Source of the DNA: Pseudomonas paralcaligenes
Lineage (GTDB): Bacteria; Pseudomonadota; Gammaproteobacteria; Pseudomonadales; Pseudomonadaceae
Assembly: GCF_019655855.1 (NCBI RefSeq)
Contig: NZ_BPFX01000025.1
Coordinates: 183,426 to 247,425 of the forward strand
DNA length: 64,000 nt
Direction: 5' to 3'
The notes beneath the pieces are model-generated. The model ran no database searches. It saw nothing but the letters and a program-made list of their open reading frames with translations, and had not been told where the DNA came from. The translations under genes and the position numbers were made by a program. Positions 1-55,286 of this stretch are shown here, piece after piece. Position 1 is the first letter of the stretch. Each line of letters starts with the position of its first letter.

Positions 1-1142
1 GCCAGGCCGGGCCGGGCGGCGTCCGGCACCGCGCCCCACAGCGGATTGGTGAAGTCCACACCCTGGTAGCTGCCCAGGTCGACAGCGATCTGCGGCTCCT
101 TGGCGTGGTAGTTGATGAAGTAGAAGCCAAACTCGGTGAGGTTCAGCTCCTCCGCCACGTAGCGCAGGGCGAAGCCGTACTGGCCGTCGTTCTTGGCGTT
201 GATGTCGCTGCCGATGTTGGCCACCTTGAACACGTTGTTGGTCGGGTCCAGGTAGGCGTTCGGGCCGTACGGTCCGCTGCCCACCAGGCCGAACTGGGCG
301 GCCAGCGGATAGGCCGCCAGCAGCTGGCTCACCAGCGGATCGTCGAAGCGGGTATAGGCGGTGTTGCCGCCCTCGGCGAACAGGTCCGTCTCGGAGAAGA
401 AGGTGCCGGACGGGTCGATCGCCGATTCCTTCCAGTTCCACTGGTAGAAGCCTTCCAGGGACAGGTTGTCGGTCAGGCCGACGTTGAAGTTGAAGGCCTC
501 CACCGGGACCAGCACTTCCTTGAGTTCGGAGCCCGGCAGGCGGAACTTGCCGGCGTCGATCGGGTTGGTGGTGTTGATCCCACCGCGGTAGAAGATGCCC
601 TCGCCCCAGTTGAACACCTGGCGGCCGACCTTCACGGTCAGCGGCATGGTGCCCACGTCCCAGTTGCCGTAGACGTAGGCATCGAGGATCTCGGCGCTGC
701 GGCCGGCACTGCGGCGGGTCGCGTCGGTGAAGCGCTCGTTGTGCGGGTAGCTCTGGCTCGGCCGGAAGTCGTCGTTGTCGTTGCGCTTGTCCATGATCTG
801 GGTGTCATAGAAGGCGGTGCCGCGCACGAGCATGCCGTAGTTGCGGTAGTTGGCCTCCAGGTCGGAGGTGATCTTGAACACCTCGGAGACCAGACCGGTG
901 TCGAAGTTGCGATTGCCGTCGTTGCCGTTGGTGTCGTCGTTGGTCTTGTCCTGACCCTGCACCCGGTACAGCTGGCCGTAGGACACGGTGGTGTCCAGCG
1001 AGCCGGTCACCTCGCCATCGACGAAGCTGAATTCGACGGCCGAGGCCGGCGCCGCCAGCAGCAGCGGAACCAGCCCGGCGAGGGCGAAACCCGCCTTGGC
1101 GGGAGCGAGGGACAGGGACGACTTGCGCAAGGGGATGGCCAT
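1..1142 (-). CDS. DUF1302 family protein, 3' end outside window
   Basis: The first 380 residues are visible; the C-terminus lies beyond base 1. The N-terminus has a basic stretch (MAIPLRKSS) and a hydrophobic core ending in a signal-peptidase-like AAPASA, so export is predicted. The mature part is rich in Tyr, Asn, Asp and Gly in short alternating segments, as in beta-rich outer-membrane proteins, and matches my recollection of DUF1302 proteins, which in Pseudomonas usually precede a DUF1329 gene; that gene would lie outside the window. The start at 1142 has GGAG six bases upstream. An in-frame ATG at 1154 lacks such a site. No substrate can be named. Confidence 0.8.
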   Translation of the reverse strand, partial: MAIPLRKSSLSLAPAKAGFALAGLVPLLLAAPASAVEFSFVDGEVTGSLDTTVSYGQLYRVQGQDKTNDDTNGNDGNRNFDTGLVSEVFKITSDLEANYRNYGMLVRGTAFYDTQIMDKRNDNDDFRPSQSYPHNERFTDATRRSAGRSAEILDAYVYGNWDVGTMPLTVKVGRQVFNWGEGIFYRGGINTTNPIDAGKFRLPGSELKEVLVPVEAFNFNVGLTDNLSLEGFYQWNWKESAIDPSGTFFSETDLFAEGGNTAYTRFDDPLVSQLLAAYPLAAQFGLVGSGPYGPNAYLDPTNNVFKVANIGSDINAKNDGQYGFALRYVAEELNLTEFGFYFINYHAKEPQIAVDLGSYQGVDFTNPLWGAVPDAARPGL

Positions 1143-36746: not shown

Positions 36747-37571
36747 TCAGCGGCTGCTGACGCGCTGCTCGAGCAGAGTGCGGTTGGCCACCGAGACCAG
36801 CTCACCGTCGTCGGTGAGCAGCACAGTCTTCACGGTGCCGATCTCCTCGATCTGGCCTTCGACCTCACCGACCTTCACCTGTTGCCCGACCTCGTAGAGT
36901 TCGCGCACATAGATGCCGGCCAGGATCTGCCCGGCGATCTCGCGGCTGCCCAGGCCGAGCGCCAGGGCCACGGCCAGACCCACGGAAATCAGCACGATGG
37001 CGATCACGTTGTTCAGCAGGTCGGTCTTCACTTCCAGCTGACCGATGGCCACCGAGATGCTGATGATGATCACCAGACCCTGGGCGATGCGGCCGAGGCC
37101 CGCCGAGTAGTCCAGGCCGACGCCCTCGGCGGCGCCGCGGACCAGGCTGCTGACCAGCTGGGCGAGCAGCACGCCGGCGAGCAGTACCAGAGCCGCGCCG
37201 AATACCTTGGGCAGGTACAGGGCCAGCACGTCGAGGGTCGCGGACACGCGCTGCAGGCCCAGCGACTCGGCGGCGGAGACCAGGAATATCAGCAGCACGA
37301 ACCAGTAGATGATCTTGCCGATCAGGGTCGACACCGACACCTGGATGCCTACCCGCGCCATCAGCTTGGTCAGGCCGGTGCCCGCCATCAGACGGTCGAG
37401 GCCGAGCTTGGCCAGCAGCTTGGAAATCAGGGTGTCGAGCAGCTTGGCCACCACGAAGCCGAGCAGGCCGAGGATCAGCGCGACGAACAGATTGGGAATG
37501 AAGCCCGCGATCTTGCTCCACAGGGTGGTCATGGCGGCCACGAGCGCTTGGGTCCAGGGATCGAGTTCCAT
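36747..37571 (-). CDS. cmpX: Mechanosensitive-channel-like membrane protein CmpX
   Basis: A 274-residue inner-membrane protein of the conserved TM-helix/MscS-like group, with about five hydrophobic segments (FIPNLFVALILGLLGFVVAKL; IGKIIYWFVLLIFLV; VLVLLAG-type; a C-terminal soluble part). CmpX is known to influence SigX activity and membrane stiffness responses in Pseudomonas. It starts two bases after the end of crfX and precedes sigX. Confidence 0.92.
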   Translation of the reverse strand: MELDPWTQALVAAMTTLWSKIAGFIPNLFVALILGLLGFVVAKLLDTLISKLLAKLGLDRLMAGTGLTKLMARVGIQVSVSTLIGKIIYWFVLLIFLVSAAESLGLQRVSATLDVLALYLPKVFGAALVLLAGVLLAQLVSSLVRGAAEGVGLDYSAGLGRIAQGLVIIISISVAIGQLEVKTDLLNNVIAIVLISVGLAVALALGLGSREIAGQILAGIYVRELYEVGQQVKVGEVEGQIEEIGTVKTVLLTDDGELVSVANRTLLEQRVSSR

Positions 37572-46140: not shown

Positions 46141-46221
46141 CTGGGTCCCCGCCTTCGCGGGGACGACGGCATGGAAGGATGGCGGGCCTGCCCCCGTCAT
46201 TCCCGCGTAGGCGGGAATCCA
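46141..46221. repeat. Inverted pair of GTCATTCCCGCG-type repeats
   Basis: Two related palindromic units: CTGGGTCCCCGCC...GGGGACGACG (46141-46167) and CGTCATTCCC...GGGAATCCA (46195-46221). They are inverted copies of one 27-bp element that recurs as a pair at 55187-55252. The element is a short interspersed palindromic repeat. Confidence 0.7.
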
Positions 46222-51903: not shown

Positions 51904-52096
51904 TGAAGAGGGAGCAAAACGGTGCCCAACCGATCATTTCACCTGCAGAAACGCTCATAAGCGGCTGTCGCCACAGAAAAACCCCATGTTAGAATGCCGC
52001 CCGCATCCACCGGCCCAGGCCACCCGTGCGCCTGCTAGACTTCATCGGCCGGCCTCATGCCCCGCCGCCCCGACGACGCGACCCATCAAAGGATTT

Positions 52097-52630
52097 ATGC
52101 GACTCACGTCCCTCGCCATCCTCCTCGGCATCCTGATGCTTCCCGGCCTGAGTCCCGCCGCCGAAAAGACCGTCTATGGTCTGAACGAATACGTCAGCCT
52201 TACCGAACTGGACCTGCAGGTCGCCGCCAAGCTCGACACCGGCGCCAAGACCGCGTCCCTCAGCGCCCGTGACATCAAGCGCTTCAAGCGCGACGGCGAG
52301 ACCTGGGTGCGCTTCTACCTGGCCATCGACGACGCCCACGAGCATCCGATCGAGCGCCCGCTGGCGCGCATCAGCAAGATCAAGCGCCGCGCCGGCGACT
52401 TCGATCCCGACGAAGACAAGACCTACACCGCACGCCCGGTGATCGAACTGCAGCTGTGCATGGGCAAGGCCCGACGCACCATCGAAGTGAACCTGACCGA
52501 CCGCAGCGCCTTCCAATACCCGCTGCTGATCGGCTCCGAAGCGCTCAAGCGCCTGGATGCCCTGGTCGATCCCAGTCTTAAATATGCTGCTGGCAAACCT
52601 GGCTGCACCTCCGCAAACTCTGCCGAGTAA
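52097..52630 (+). CDS. Retropepsin-like aspartic protease domain protein (DUF785 type), exported
   Basis: A 177-residue protein with a signal peptide ending about SPAA (22). The active-site motif of clan AA proteases, D-T-G-A, is at residues 47-50 (KLDTGAKTAS). Older databases call the family ATP-dependent zinc protease, which the motif does not support. It is the first of three closely spaced genes with a transglutaminase-7TM protein and an ATP-grasp ligase; this trio was proposed by Iyer and colleagues to make or process peptide tags. AAGGA precedes the ATG. Confidence 0.87.
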   Translation: MRLTSLAILLGILMLPGLSPAAEKTVYGLNEYVSLTELDLQVAAKLDTGAKTASLSARDIKRFKRDGETWVRFYLAIDDAHEHPIERPLARISKIKRRAGDFDPDEDKTYTARPVIELQLCMGKARRTIEVNLTDRSAFQYPLLIGSEALKRLDALVDPSLKYAAGKPGCTSANSAE

Positions 52631-52635
52631 CTCAC

Positions 52636-54162
52636 ATGCGCTCTCTTACCCTGCATCTGAAAGTCCTGATCACCCTCCTGGTGACGGTGGGCGTTCTGGT
52701 CACGGCCTACCAGATCTTCATCCTCGGCATCCCGGTGACCGAAGACGAGACCGACGATCTGTGGAACATCGACGCCAAGGTCGAATTCCAGGCCAGCCCG
52801 CGCGAACCGGTGAAAGTGCAGATGTTCGTGCCGCCGTTGAACCAGGACTACGTGAGCCTCAACGAGAGCTTCATCTCCAACAACTACGGGGTGAGCGTCA
52901 ACCGCGTCGACGGCAACCGCAAGCTGACCTGGTCGGCCCGCCGCGCCAACGGCAACCAGACCCTCTACTACCGCCTGGTACTGACCAAGCGCTACAGCGG
53001 CGAGCCGGCCAAGGCCAAGGGCCCGATCTTCCGCGACAGCATCGCCGTGGAAGGCGCCGAGAAGATCGCCGCCGAAGCCCTGCTCGCCCCCATCCGCCAG
53101 CACTCAGCGGACGTGCAGACCTTCATCAGCGAGACCATCAAGCGTGTCAACAATGCCGGCGACGATAACGTCAAGCTGCTGCTCGGCGGCGACTCGTCCA
53201 CCGCCAACAAGGCCAAGGTGATCGACCTGCTGCTGTCCATCGCCCACGTGCCGATGGAGCGCGTGCACACCATCCGCCTGGTCGCCGACGCCCAGCAGAC
53301 CCCGGAACTGTGGCTGCGCAGCTTCAACGGCGACAACTGGCTGTACTTCAACCCGGAAACCGGCGAACAGGGCCTGCCGGTCGATCGCGTGGTCTGGTGG
53401 ACCGGCGACGAGCCGCTGGTGACTATCGAGGGCGGCAAGAAACCGCAGGTCAGCTTCACCCTGAACAACAGCGAGATGAACGCCATCCGCCTGGCCAAGC
53501 TGACCGACGAGAACACCGACGTCGACTTCCTCGAATACTCGCTGTACGGCCTGCCGCTGCAGACCCAGCAGACCTACCAGATCATGATCATGATCCCGAT
53601 CGGGGTGCTGGTGATCCTGATCCTGCGCAACCTCGGCGGCCTGCAGACCCTCGGCACCTTCACCCCGGTACTGATCGCCCTCGCCTTCCGCGAGACCCAG
53701 CTGGGCTTCGGCATCGCGCTGTTCACCATCATCACCGCGCTCGGCCTGTCGCTACGCTCATACCTCGAACACCTCAAACTGCAGATGCTGCCACGGCTGT
53801 CGGTGGTGCTGACCTTCGTGGTGGTGCTGATCGCGGTGATCAGCCTGTTCAGCCACAAGCTCGGCCTGGAGCGCGGCCTGTCGGTGGCCCTGTTCCCGAT
53901 GGTGATCCTGACCATGACCATCGAGCGTCTGTCCATCACCTGGGAAGAGCGCGGCGGCGCCCACGCCTTCAAGGTCGCCGTCGGCACCCTGATCGCCGCA
54001 TCGCTGGCCCACATGCTGATGAGCATCGAGCAGCTGACCTACTTCGTCTTCACCTTCCCGGCCGTGCTGCTGATCCTGGTGGGCTTCATGCTGGCGATGG
54101 GTCGCTACCGCGGCTACCGCCTGACCGAGCTGTTCCGCTTCAAAGCCTTCCTGAAGGATTGA
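52636..54162 (+). CDS. Inactive transglutaminase fused to seven membrane helices
   Basis: A 508-residue membrane protein. Residues 10-30 are an N-terminal membrane anchor. A periplasmic transglutaminase-like domain follows (about 40-290), in which the family's catalytic Cys is absent, so it is probably a binding domain. About seven hydrophobic helices occupy residues 310-495, starting QIMIMIPIGVLVILIL. It lies five bases after the protease gene and four before the ligase gene. Confidence 0.88.
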   Translation: MRSLTLHLKVLITLLVTVGVLVTAYQIFILGIPVTEDETDDLWNIDAKVEFQASPREPVKVQMFVPPLNQDYVSLNESFISNNYGVSVNRVDGNRKLTWSARRANGNQTLYYRLVLTKRYSGEPAKAKGPIFRDSIAVEGAEKIAAEALLAPIRQHSADVQTFISETIKRVNNAGDDNVKLLLGGDSSTANKAKVIDLLLSIAHVPMERVHTIRLVADAQQTPELWLRSFNGDNWLYFNPETGEQGLPVDRVVWWTGDEPLVTIEGGKKPQVSFTLNNSEMNAIRLAKLTDENTDVDFLEYSLYGLPLQTQQTYQIMIMIPIGVLVILILRNLGGLQTLGTFTPVLIALAFRETQLGFGIALFTIITALGLSLRSYLEHLKLQMLPRLSVVLTFVVVLIAVISLFSHKLGLERGLSVALFPMVILTMTIERLSITWEERGGAHAFKVAVGTLIAASLAHMLMSIEQLTYFVFTFPAVLLILVGFMLAMGRYRGYRLTELFRFKAFLKD

Positions 54163-54166
54163 ACCC

Positions 54167-55153
54167 ATGATCGGCCTGTGGAAGACGTGGAAGGCCCTTG
54201 AAGCCAAAGGCATCATGGGCATCAACCGACGCAACGCGGACTACGTGCTGAAGTACAACAAACGGCACCTGTACCCGATCGTCGACGACAAGATCATCAC
54301 CAAGGAGCGGGCCATCGAGGCCGGCATCCATGTGCCGGAGCTGTACGGCATCATCTCCACGGAGAAGGAGATCGAGCGCTTCGACGAAATCATCGGCGGC
54401 CGTAGCGACTTCGTCATCAAACCGGCCCAGGGCGCCGGCGGCGACGGCATCCTGGTGATCGCCGACAAGTTCGAGGGCCGCTTCAAGACCGTCTCCGGCA
54501 AGATCGTCAGCCACGACGAGATCGAGCAGCAGCTCTCCAGCATTCTGTCCGGCCTGTATTCGCTGGGCGGCCACCGCGACCGCGCGCTGATCGAATACCG
54601 CGTCACCCCGGACCCGATCTTCAAGAGCATCAGCTACGAGGGCGTGCCGGACATCCGCATCATCGTGCTGATGGGCTACCCGGTGATGGCCATGCTGCGC
54701 CTGCCGACCCGCCAGTCCAACGGCAAGGCCAACCTGCACCAGGGCGCCATCGGCGTCGGCGTGGACCTGGCCACTGGCGTGACCCTGCGCGGCACCTGGC
54801 TGAACAACAAGATCACCAAGCACCCGGACACCACCAACGCGGTGGACGGCGTGCAGCTGCCCAACTGGGACGGCTTCATGAAGCTGGCGGCCGGCTGCTA
54901 CGAGCTGTGCGGCCTCGGCTATATCGGCGTGGACATGGTGCTGGACGTGGACAAGGGCCCGCTGATCCTCGAACTCAACGCCCGCCCCGGCCTGAACATC
55001 CAGATCGCCAACGACTGCGGCCTGACCCATCGCGCCCACGCGGTGGAAGCCCGCATCGCGGAACTGGCGAAGGACGACATCAAGGAAAGCCCGGAGGAGC
55101 GCGTGCGTTTCTCCCAGCAGCTGTTCGGCCACATCAAGCCGAAGGAAGTCTGA
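54167..55153 (+). CDS. RimK-like ATP-grasp (alpha-L-glutamate ligase-like) protein
   Basis: A 328-residue ATP-grasp enzyme. Nucleotide-binding KPAQGAGGDGILVI is near residues 86-99, and the metal-binding ELNARPGLNIQIAN (E-x-N) is near 267. By family it joins an amino acid to a carboxylate, in the manner of RimK, MptN or CofE-type ligases; the acceptor is not known. It is the third gene of the protease/7TM/ligase set. Confidence 0.88.
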   Translation: MIGLWKTWKALEAKGIMGINRRNADYVLKYNKRHLYPIVDDKIITKERAIEAGIHVPELYGIISTEKEIERFDEIIGGRSDFVIKPAQGAGGDGILVIADKFEGRFKTVSGKIVSHDEIEQQLSSILSGLYSLGGHRDRALIEYRVTPDPIFKSISYEGVPDIRIIVLMGYPVMAMLRLPTRQSNGKANLHQGAIGVGVDLATGVTLRGTWLNNKITKHPDTTNAVDGVQLPNWDGFMKLAAGCYELCGLGYIGVDMVLDVDKGPLILELNARPGLNIQIANDCGLTHRAHAVEARIAELAKDDIKESPEERVRFSQQLFGHIKPKEV

Positions 55154-55186
55154 TACAGGGCGCGCGAACGAAGCCCCCTCAAACCC

Positions 55187-55252
55187 CGTCATTCCCGCGC
55201 AGGCGGGAATCCATGCGCAGTGTTGCTGGGTCCCCGCCTGCGCGGGGATGAC
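55187..55252. repeat. Second inverted pair of GTCATTCCCGCG-type repeats
   Basis: CGTCATTCCC...GGGAATCCA (55187-55213) and the inverted unit CTGGGTCCCC...GGGGATGACG (55226-55252). Same 27-bp element as at 46141-46221, with the two units in the opposite relative order. It separates the ATP-grasp gene from the glycosyltransferase promoter. Confidence 0.75.
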
Positions 55253-55286
55253 GGGACGGGGCGTGCAGGTTCTGAATACACGAGCG

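Follow-up and report, generated by a model that had tools for sequence, protein, structure and literature searches.

A 64,000-nucleotide stretch of the Pseudomonas paralcaligenes genome (contig NZ_BPFX01000025.1, hereafter the window) carries three genes encoding a retropepsin-like protease, a membrane protein with a transglutaminase-like domain and an ATP-grasp ligase (Table 1). This trio is the rlo operon, already published for Pseudomonas aeruginosa (Lormand et al. 2025, PMC12239564). The first-pass annotation, made from the sequence alone, had placed the three genes here with spacings of four or five bases, which holds: they lie on the same strand, separated by 5 bases (rloA-rloB) and 4 bases (rloB-rloC). 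It had also suggested that a membrane-sited system for adding and removing tags would be new biology, but the trio was named and genetically tested in the 2025 study. We found no terminator-like site on the coding strand of the rlo genes and a single promoter-like match upstream of rloA (51968-51995), about the chance level given by shuffled sequences (mean 0.5, standard deviation 0.8). Joint transcription of rloA, rloB and rloC is strongly implied, and the inverted repeat directly downstream of rloC is a possible end of the unit. RloB is encoded by a single-copy gene in this genome and shares 88-100% identity with the 120 listed of its 4360 relatives, among which the closest named ones (96-97% identity) belong to Pseudomonas sp. 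and Aquipseudomonas alcaligenes.

Table 1. Features of the rlo locus in the window (nucleotide positions, except for the RloB layout, given in residues)
Feature	Position	Strand	Description
rloA	52097-52630	+	177 residues; secreted retropepsin-like aspartic peptidase; signal peptide, DTGA at 47-50
rloB	52636-54162	+	inner-membrane protein; transglutaminase-like domain without catalytic triad and seven-helix membrane domain
RloB layout	~40-282; ~300-490		one N-terminal membrane helix; periplasmic transglutaminase-like domain (~40-282); seven-helix domain (~300-490); basic C-terminal tail
rloC	54167-55153	+	328 residues; ATP-grasp ligase, RimK-related
Repetitive extragenic palindrome (REP)-like inverted repeat	55185-55255	.	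29-nt arms, 90% complementary; directly 3' of rloC

RloA of the window scores 340.9 bits with the NCBIfam RloA1 model (cut-off 280) and 159.6 bits with Pfam PF05618 (cut-off 27), and it matches the PDB entry 9g58 with an E-value of 8.1e-83. Together with a signal peptide, read by eye, and the DTGA motif, this bears out the exported protease of the first-pass annotation. In an alignment of 25 RloAs (L040 and 24 operon copies, among them that of the window but not the split copy of L022), the catalytic D47 and A50 are invariant. The residues of the polyglutamate groove are also conserved, K45 being Lys in 19 copies and Arg in 6, R91 being Arg in 24, and R113 and R136 being Arg in all 25, so that an acidic substrate is probably common to RloAs across the class. 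The flap positions K94, K96, R98 and K108 are variable. The cysteines of periplasmic RloA are present in the window protein (C121 and C170), with Cys at these positions in 21/25 and 18/25 copies, respectively. Only two PF05618 genes exist in the window's genome, rloA and L058:6371-6838 (minus strand). Since the latter has no visible signal peptide and overlaps a RimK gene (L058:5469-6374, minus strand), it is RimB, and the genome has one secreted RloA.

RloB contains the PF14400 and PF14402 domains and scores 1068.5 bits with the NCBIfam RloB model (cut-off 900). At the columns of the Cys-His-Asp triad of active relatives, it carries Thr, Glu and Asn, in agreement with the transglutaminase-like domain without cysteine, fused to seven helices, that had been recognized earlier. 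Of the 26 canonical RloBs of the survey described below, none has the Cys and 12 keep the Asp. Judged by the single N-terminal helix and the seven helices of the Pfam domain, the RloB C-terminus would lie in the cytosol, which fits what the RloB-RloC fusions described below need.

RloC scores 559.1 bits with TIGR02291 (cut-off 314.2) and 328.3 bits with PF14397 (cut-off 31.4), confirming the predicted ATP-grasp ligase; no signal peptide was seen. With the RimK family model TIGR00768, it reaches 50.1 bits, under the cut-off of 143.4, and the RloC profile matches RimK of the window's genome with an E-value of 1.4e-8. Searched against PDB sequences, this profile gave nine matches over short stretches, namely four RimK-type ligases, three cyanophycin synthases, the tubulin polyglutamylase TTLL7 and the uncharacterised ATP-grasp protein 3df7. 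In an alignment of 28 RloCs (26 canonical and 2 variant), 50 columns are invariant, 22 of them identical in RimK. RloC K85, R164, N189, D256, E269 and N271 align with RimK K141, R189, N213, D248, E260 and N262, of which we take D248 and E260 to be metal ligands. The columns of K141, R189, N213 and N262 are invariant in the 28 RloCs; among 73 variant RloCs of full length they are kept in 72 or 73, a gap accounting for the one exception. In P. aeruginosa RimK, K141 and N213 are among the ADP contacts, while R189 and N262 contact the bound glutamate chain (PMC10092738). RloC thus looks fit for activating and adding glutamate, but the growing chain or acceptor would have to be held elsewhere, with RloB as the obvious candidate for holding it.

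The published genetics and biochemistry give these proteins a physiological context. The rlo operon controls low-osmolarity survival, biofilm formation and beta-lactam sensitivity in Pseudomonas (PMC12239564). RloA, whose structures were solved in that study, cleaves runs of 8 or 10 glutamates and not those of 6 or fewer, and both its catalysis and its basic groove residues are required in vivo. P. aeruginosa lacking RloA, RloA2 and RloA3 does not grow without salt, and the triple mutants form short, wide cells with a higher beta-lactam sensitivity. Deletion of rloB, rloC or both fully restores the salt-free growth of the triple mutant and partly corrects its other defects. The authors commit themselves neither to an in vivo substrate nor to functions for RloB and RloC (PMC12239564). 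The first-pass annotation had proposed an amide ligase paired with a protease for making and processing a peptide tag. The pairing gains support from the cleavage of polyglutamate by RloA, from the suppression of RloA loss by rloB or rloC deletion and from the RimK active-site residues kept in RloC; a free polyglutamate chain would fit these data as well as a peptide tag. In other studies, rlo appears among the suppressor insertions tabulated in work on exopolysaccharide in flagellar mutants (PMC7314104), the operon acquired parallel mutations under antibiotic selection (PMC10127599), and vesicle production rose in Shewanella when a gene with an RloB-like annotation was disrupted (PMC12096838).

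Co-occurrence was examined in an even set of 140 gammaproteobacterial genomes. PF14402 matches were obtained in 31 of them, 26 strong (E < 1e-90) and five weak, and TIGR02291 matches in 44 (E <= 0.001), over the cut-off in 26. The genomes with an over-cut-off RloC and those with a strong RloB are the same 26. RloC lies 3' of a full RloB in 26/26 loci (gap of -8 to 63 bases) and RloA 5' of RloB in 25/26 (gap of -17 to 98 bases), with start codons chosen by script. The adjacency of the rlo genes is not due to chance.

The complete Cys-His-Asp triad is present in two of the weak PF14402 matches, those of genomes G054 and G077. A profile made from both retrieved seven strong members (G054, G077, G336, G390, G487, G490 and G504) and one of lower score (G374) from 369 genomes of the class. 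In the loci of the seven strong members, RloB is followed by RloC, by a tetratricopeptide repeat (TPR) protein with a membrane anchor and by a putative outer-membrane protein. Unknown bases interrupt the RloC gene of G336, and G504 has its RloB gene split over two frames and shows RloC solely in the named copy of the contig (L133). This sister system was extended to the best 80 of 110 relatives from named genomes (L112-L191), several of which are contigs of the seven. Sister loci overall comprise L042, L043, L098-L103 and L112-L191, six of the first set being contigs within L112-L191. The patterns used for scanning held the His and Asp motifs and not the Cys. The Cys is present in 80/80 sister RloBs, as is the His, and the Asp in 62/80. 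The third triad residue is Gly in eight loci (L154, L177, L180-L183, L188 and L189; for instance PFGPTN) and Cys in ten (L149, L153, L155, L159-L161, L166-L168 and L175; for instance PFCPTN).

In 13 of the 80 sister loci, RloB and RloC are fused in a single open frame (that of L183 runs off the contig), and a further fusion in G374 (L103; 838 codons without a stop) brings the fusion loci to 14. RloC is separate and 3' of RloB in 65 of the 67 unfused loci, and the other two end at a contig edge. These related loci suggest that RloB and RloC form one membrane machine making glutamate chains and passing them out of the cytoplasm. The natural fusions, such as those of Kangiella spongicola (L187) and Aliikangiella coralliicola (L180), also offer a single protein for purification and assay. 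A TPR gene follows in 63/64 sister loci with room for it, and an outer-membrane barrel profile matches in 42/56 with room. No RloA-family gene was found in the 80 loci, 29 of which have flanks longer than 8 kb in both directions; G077 has one PF05618 match, on a different contig.

The titles of the sister records include Gammaproteobacteria, Nitrospirota, Mariprofundaceae, Deltaproteobacteria, Myxococcales, Bacteroidales, Spirochaetes, Campylobacterales, Caldithrix, Bdellovibrionaceae and Maricaulis/Oceanicaulis. This spread is wider than the 96% of RloB matches assigned to Proteobacteria in the 2025 survey (PMC12239564), though the published count may not have included the sister branch. The sister system predicts an exported acidic polypeptide in many phyla, and neither this product nor the RloB-RloC fusions nor the sister system were found described in the open-licence papers searched. 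Some of these neighbourhoods may already be described in Iyer et al. (2009). Two further ideas on the sister loci were not retained. The model of the L043 copy is a clear barrel with 16 long strands (pLDDT 81.6, pTM 0.78), but FadL, AlgE, porins and PgaA all figure among its top matches with comparable scores; export through the barrel is consequently deduced from the neighbouring TPR gene. Independent losses of the triad were also considered. The tree needs just one change between dead and live domains; it is unrooted with long branches and comes from a short search. It covers 111 of the 120 rows, two duplicates having been removed along with seven rows that were broken or partial, and L109 never entered. 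The association of the dead domain with RloA therefore rests on one or two events and is not independent evidence.

A third kind of RloB occurs in eight loci (L040, L041 and L104-L109, two of them short) with no RloC beside it. The Cys is absent from the seven aligned copies, and an RloA-like gene lies directly beside RloB in five of the eight loci and about 5 kb away in one more. In three (L104, L107 and L108), a RimK gene is found within 1.3 kb of RloB; near canonical loci, RimK was found in 0/14 (the window, L044 and 12 fetched loci), where the RloC genes themselves gave two weak matches. The neighbouring RimK of G487 (L104) is a second copy, 63% identical to RimK of the window's genome, and the ordinary copy is also present. 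As RimK makes poly-alpha-glutamate (PMC11957791), these loci link RloB to a ligase known for this synthesis. MscS-type channel genes lie 1.5-6 kb from RloB in four of the eight loci (L041, L104, L107 and L108) and in 0/13 canonical ones, a contrast biased by queries drawn from three of the same four loci. The RimK-RimB cluster of L108 also holds an AstE/AspA-type desuccinylase-like gene (L108:9330-10427, Pfam-checked; relatives in L107 at 60% and L045 at 56%), possibly encoding a further polyglutamate-turnover enzyme.

We propose that RloC builds an alpha-glutamate chain at RloB, that RloB presents or exports it to the periplasm and that RloA trims it there, a proposal whose chances of being right or wrong we judge to be evenly balanced. 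Acting as a RimK-type ATP-grasp enzyme on the cytosolic side of RloB, RloC would polymerise L-glutamate through alpha bonds, either as a free chain or attached to an acceptor. RloB would carry this chain into the periplasm or present it there, and the dead transglutaminase domain of RloB would probably do no more than bind it. The periplasmic dimeric retropepsin RloA would then cut the chain. Without RloA, the polyanion would pile up in the periplasm, where, uncut, it would draw water or disturb the wall, and cells would fail when osmolarity is low. In a strain devoid of RloB or RloC, the chain would be neither made nor exported, and loss of RloA would do little harm. In the sister form, the live domain of RloB itself would process the product, which would leave via the outer membrane. 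We thus infer the product to be poly-alpha-glutamate, moved by RloB and accumulating in the periplasm, and assign by the same reasoning ligation to RloC and export to RloB.

Several observations weigh against this proposal. Single rloB and rloC deletions show defects themselves (PMC12239564), so that harm is not the sole effect of the RloB-RloC product. Nor is RloA needed in every case, since the exception among the canonical loci, G134, has RloB and RloC with its sole PF05618 match in its RimK locus (L045), and since G054, which carries the sister system, has no PF05618 match in its whole assembly. The remainder of the RimK-bound chain touches S7, R8, S14, R64 and S68 (PMC10092738), and RloC is devoid of this N-terminal chain-holding part, its residue 20 aligning with RimK residue 78; it may for this reason take another acceptor or amino acid. 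Finally, there is no clear relative of the RloB membrane domain among proteins with an established transport function.

The absence of the RimK N-terminal chain site also makes a protein acceptor possible, in which case RloC would glutamylate an envelope protein or RloB itself, RloB would be a scaffold or receptor, and RloA would remove the glutamate tail. This alternative, considered by the 2025 authors (PMC12239564), has a cytosolic precedent in RimK/RimB, RimB acting on the ribosomal protein RpsF (PMC11957791). However, with a cytosolic ligase and a periplasmic protease, the modified protein would have to be moved across the membrane afterwards, no encoded polyglutamate target was found by these authors (PMC12239564), and the last 19 residues of RloB are basic (6 K/R, 2 D/E); we consider it unlikely. 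In another scenario, RloC would extend a precursor at RloB, either peptidoglycan or lipid-linked, by one amino acid, with RloA editing a cell-wall peptide. The cell shape and beta-lactam phenotypes of the triple rloA mutants would then be direct effects, and Pfam places RloC under "sugar-transfer associated ATP-grasp". We find this quite improbable, because long polyglutamate is the preferred substrate of RloA, whose basic groove residues are required in vivo (PMC12239564), and because eight of the nine solved RloC matches are peptide-chain ligases, although over short stretches and with the ninth, 3df7, uncharacterised. Taken alone, the rescue genetics (PMC12239564) would also be compatible with RloB and RloC forming a signalling or osmosensing module whose toxic activity is kept in check through cleavage of RloB or a partner by RloA, without any polymer export, and RimB is known to regulate RimK through binding (PMC11957791). 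The invariance of the ligase residues in the canonical and variant RloC families and the sister loci that keep RloB-RloC without RloA make this very improbable.

Extending the proposed synthesis and export of a glutamate chain to the sister loci, RloB-RloC could be the core of a class of polyamide synthase-exporters not recognised so far in diderm bacteria, in which an ATP-grasp ligase embedded in the membrane makes poly-alpha-glutamate or a similar acidic peptide and moves it across the inner membrane. The rlo polymer would be an osmotically active periplasmic polyanion cleared by a retropepsin, and the sister polymer would be processed by an active thiol-transglutaminase and passed to the surface via the TPR protein and the barrel, as in alginate or poly-N-acetylglucosamine export. 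We put this forward tentatively and think that it may well be wrong.

Compared with known systems, the P. aeruginosa rlo operon is the closest, with the same three families, order and compartments, the window proteins passing the RloA1, RloB and TIGR02291 cut-offs. It differs in that P. aeruginosa has RloA, RloA2 and RloA3 (PMC12239564). RimB/RimK likewise associates a retropepsin with a RimK-type ATP-grasp ligase, of which RloC keeps the ADP and terminal-glutamate contacts, but RimB is cytosolic, there is no membrane partner, and RloC differs from RimK in its family score and N-terminal part. The sister system shares with rlo a homologous seven-helix membrane protein and an ATP-grasp ligase, adjacent or fused, and departs from it by the kept transglutaminase Cys and His, the absence of RloA from the locus, the TPR protein and, often, the outer-membrane barrel. 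We also count TgpA, a transglutaminase-like membrane protein of P. aeruginosa, among the closest known systems.

With the poly-gamma-glutamate synthase PgsBCA/CapBCA we propose an analogy only, in the pairing of a ligase for a glutamate polymer with a small membrane protein of several helices. PgsB belongs to the Mur ligase type, and PgsBCA makes gamma bonds. Homology of the RloB membrane domain to PgsC/CapC, attractive by eye, is not supported, which also weighs against the proposal above: hhalign gave E-values of 0.063 and 0.13 with register shifts, and the scores of the CapC core with RloB, 5.4 in global and 14.0 in local mode, fall within the range of 61 permuted controls (means 3.6 and 13.5, maxima 11.5 and 19.5). 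A global score of 14.1 was obtained with untrimmed ends, for which there is no matching permuted control. No PgsC structure was found in the PDB by sequence. Two PgsC/CapC domains in tandem are encoded by open frames of 1081-1089 codons in four genomes of one Pseudomonadota family (L060-L067); no further Pfam domain was found in the 834-835 residues scanned of two of these frames.

Elsewhere in the window, a mechanosensitive-channel-like gene lies about 15 kb from rlo (36759-37556, minus strand), its product being 28.8% identical to the L104 counterpart. In P. aeruginosa, cmpX and rlo are likewise within some 10 genes of each other. The repeat that follows rloC is one of the REP-like palindromes of the CCCGCGCAGGCGGGAATCCA type in the window, another lying at 46142-46221. 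This type has four matches in the window with at most 3 mismatches, against 0.03 expected from shuffled sequences.

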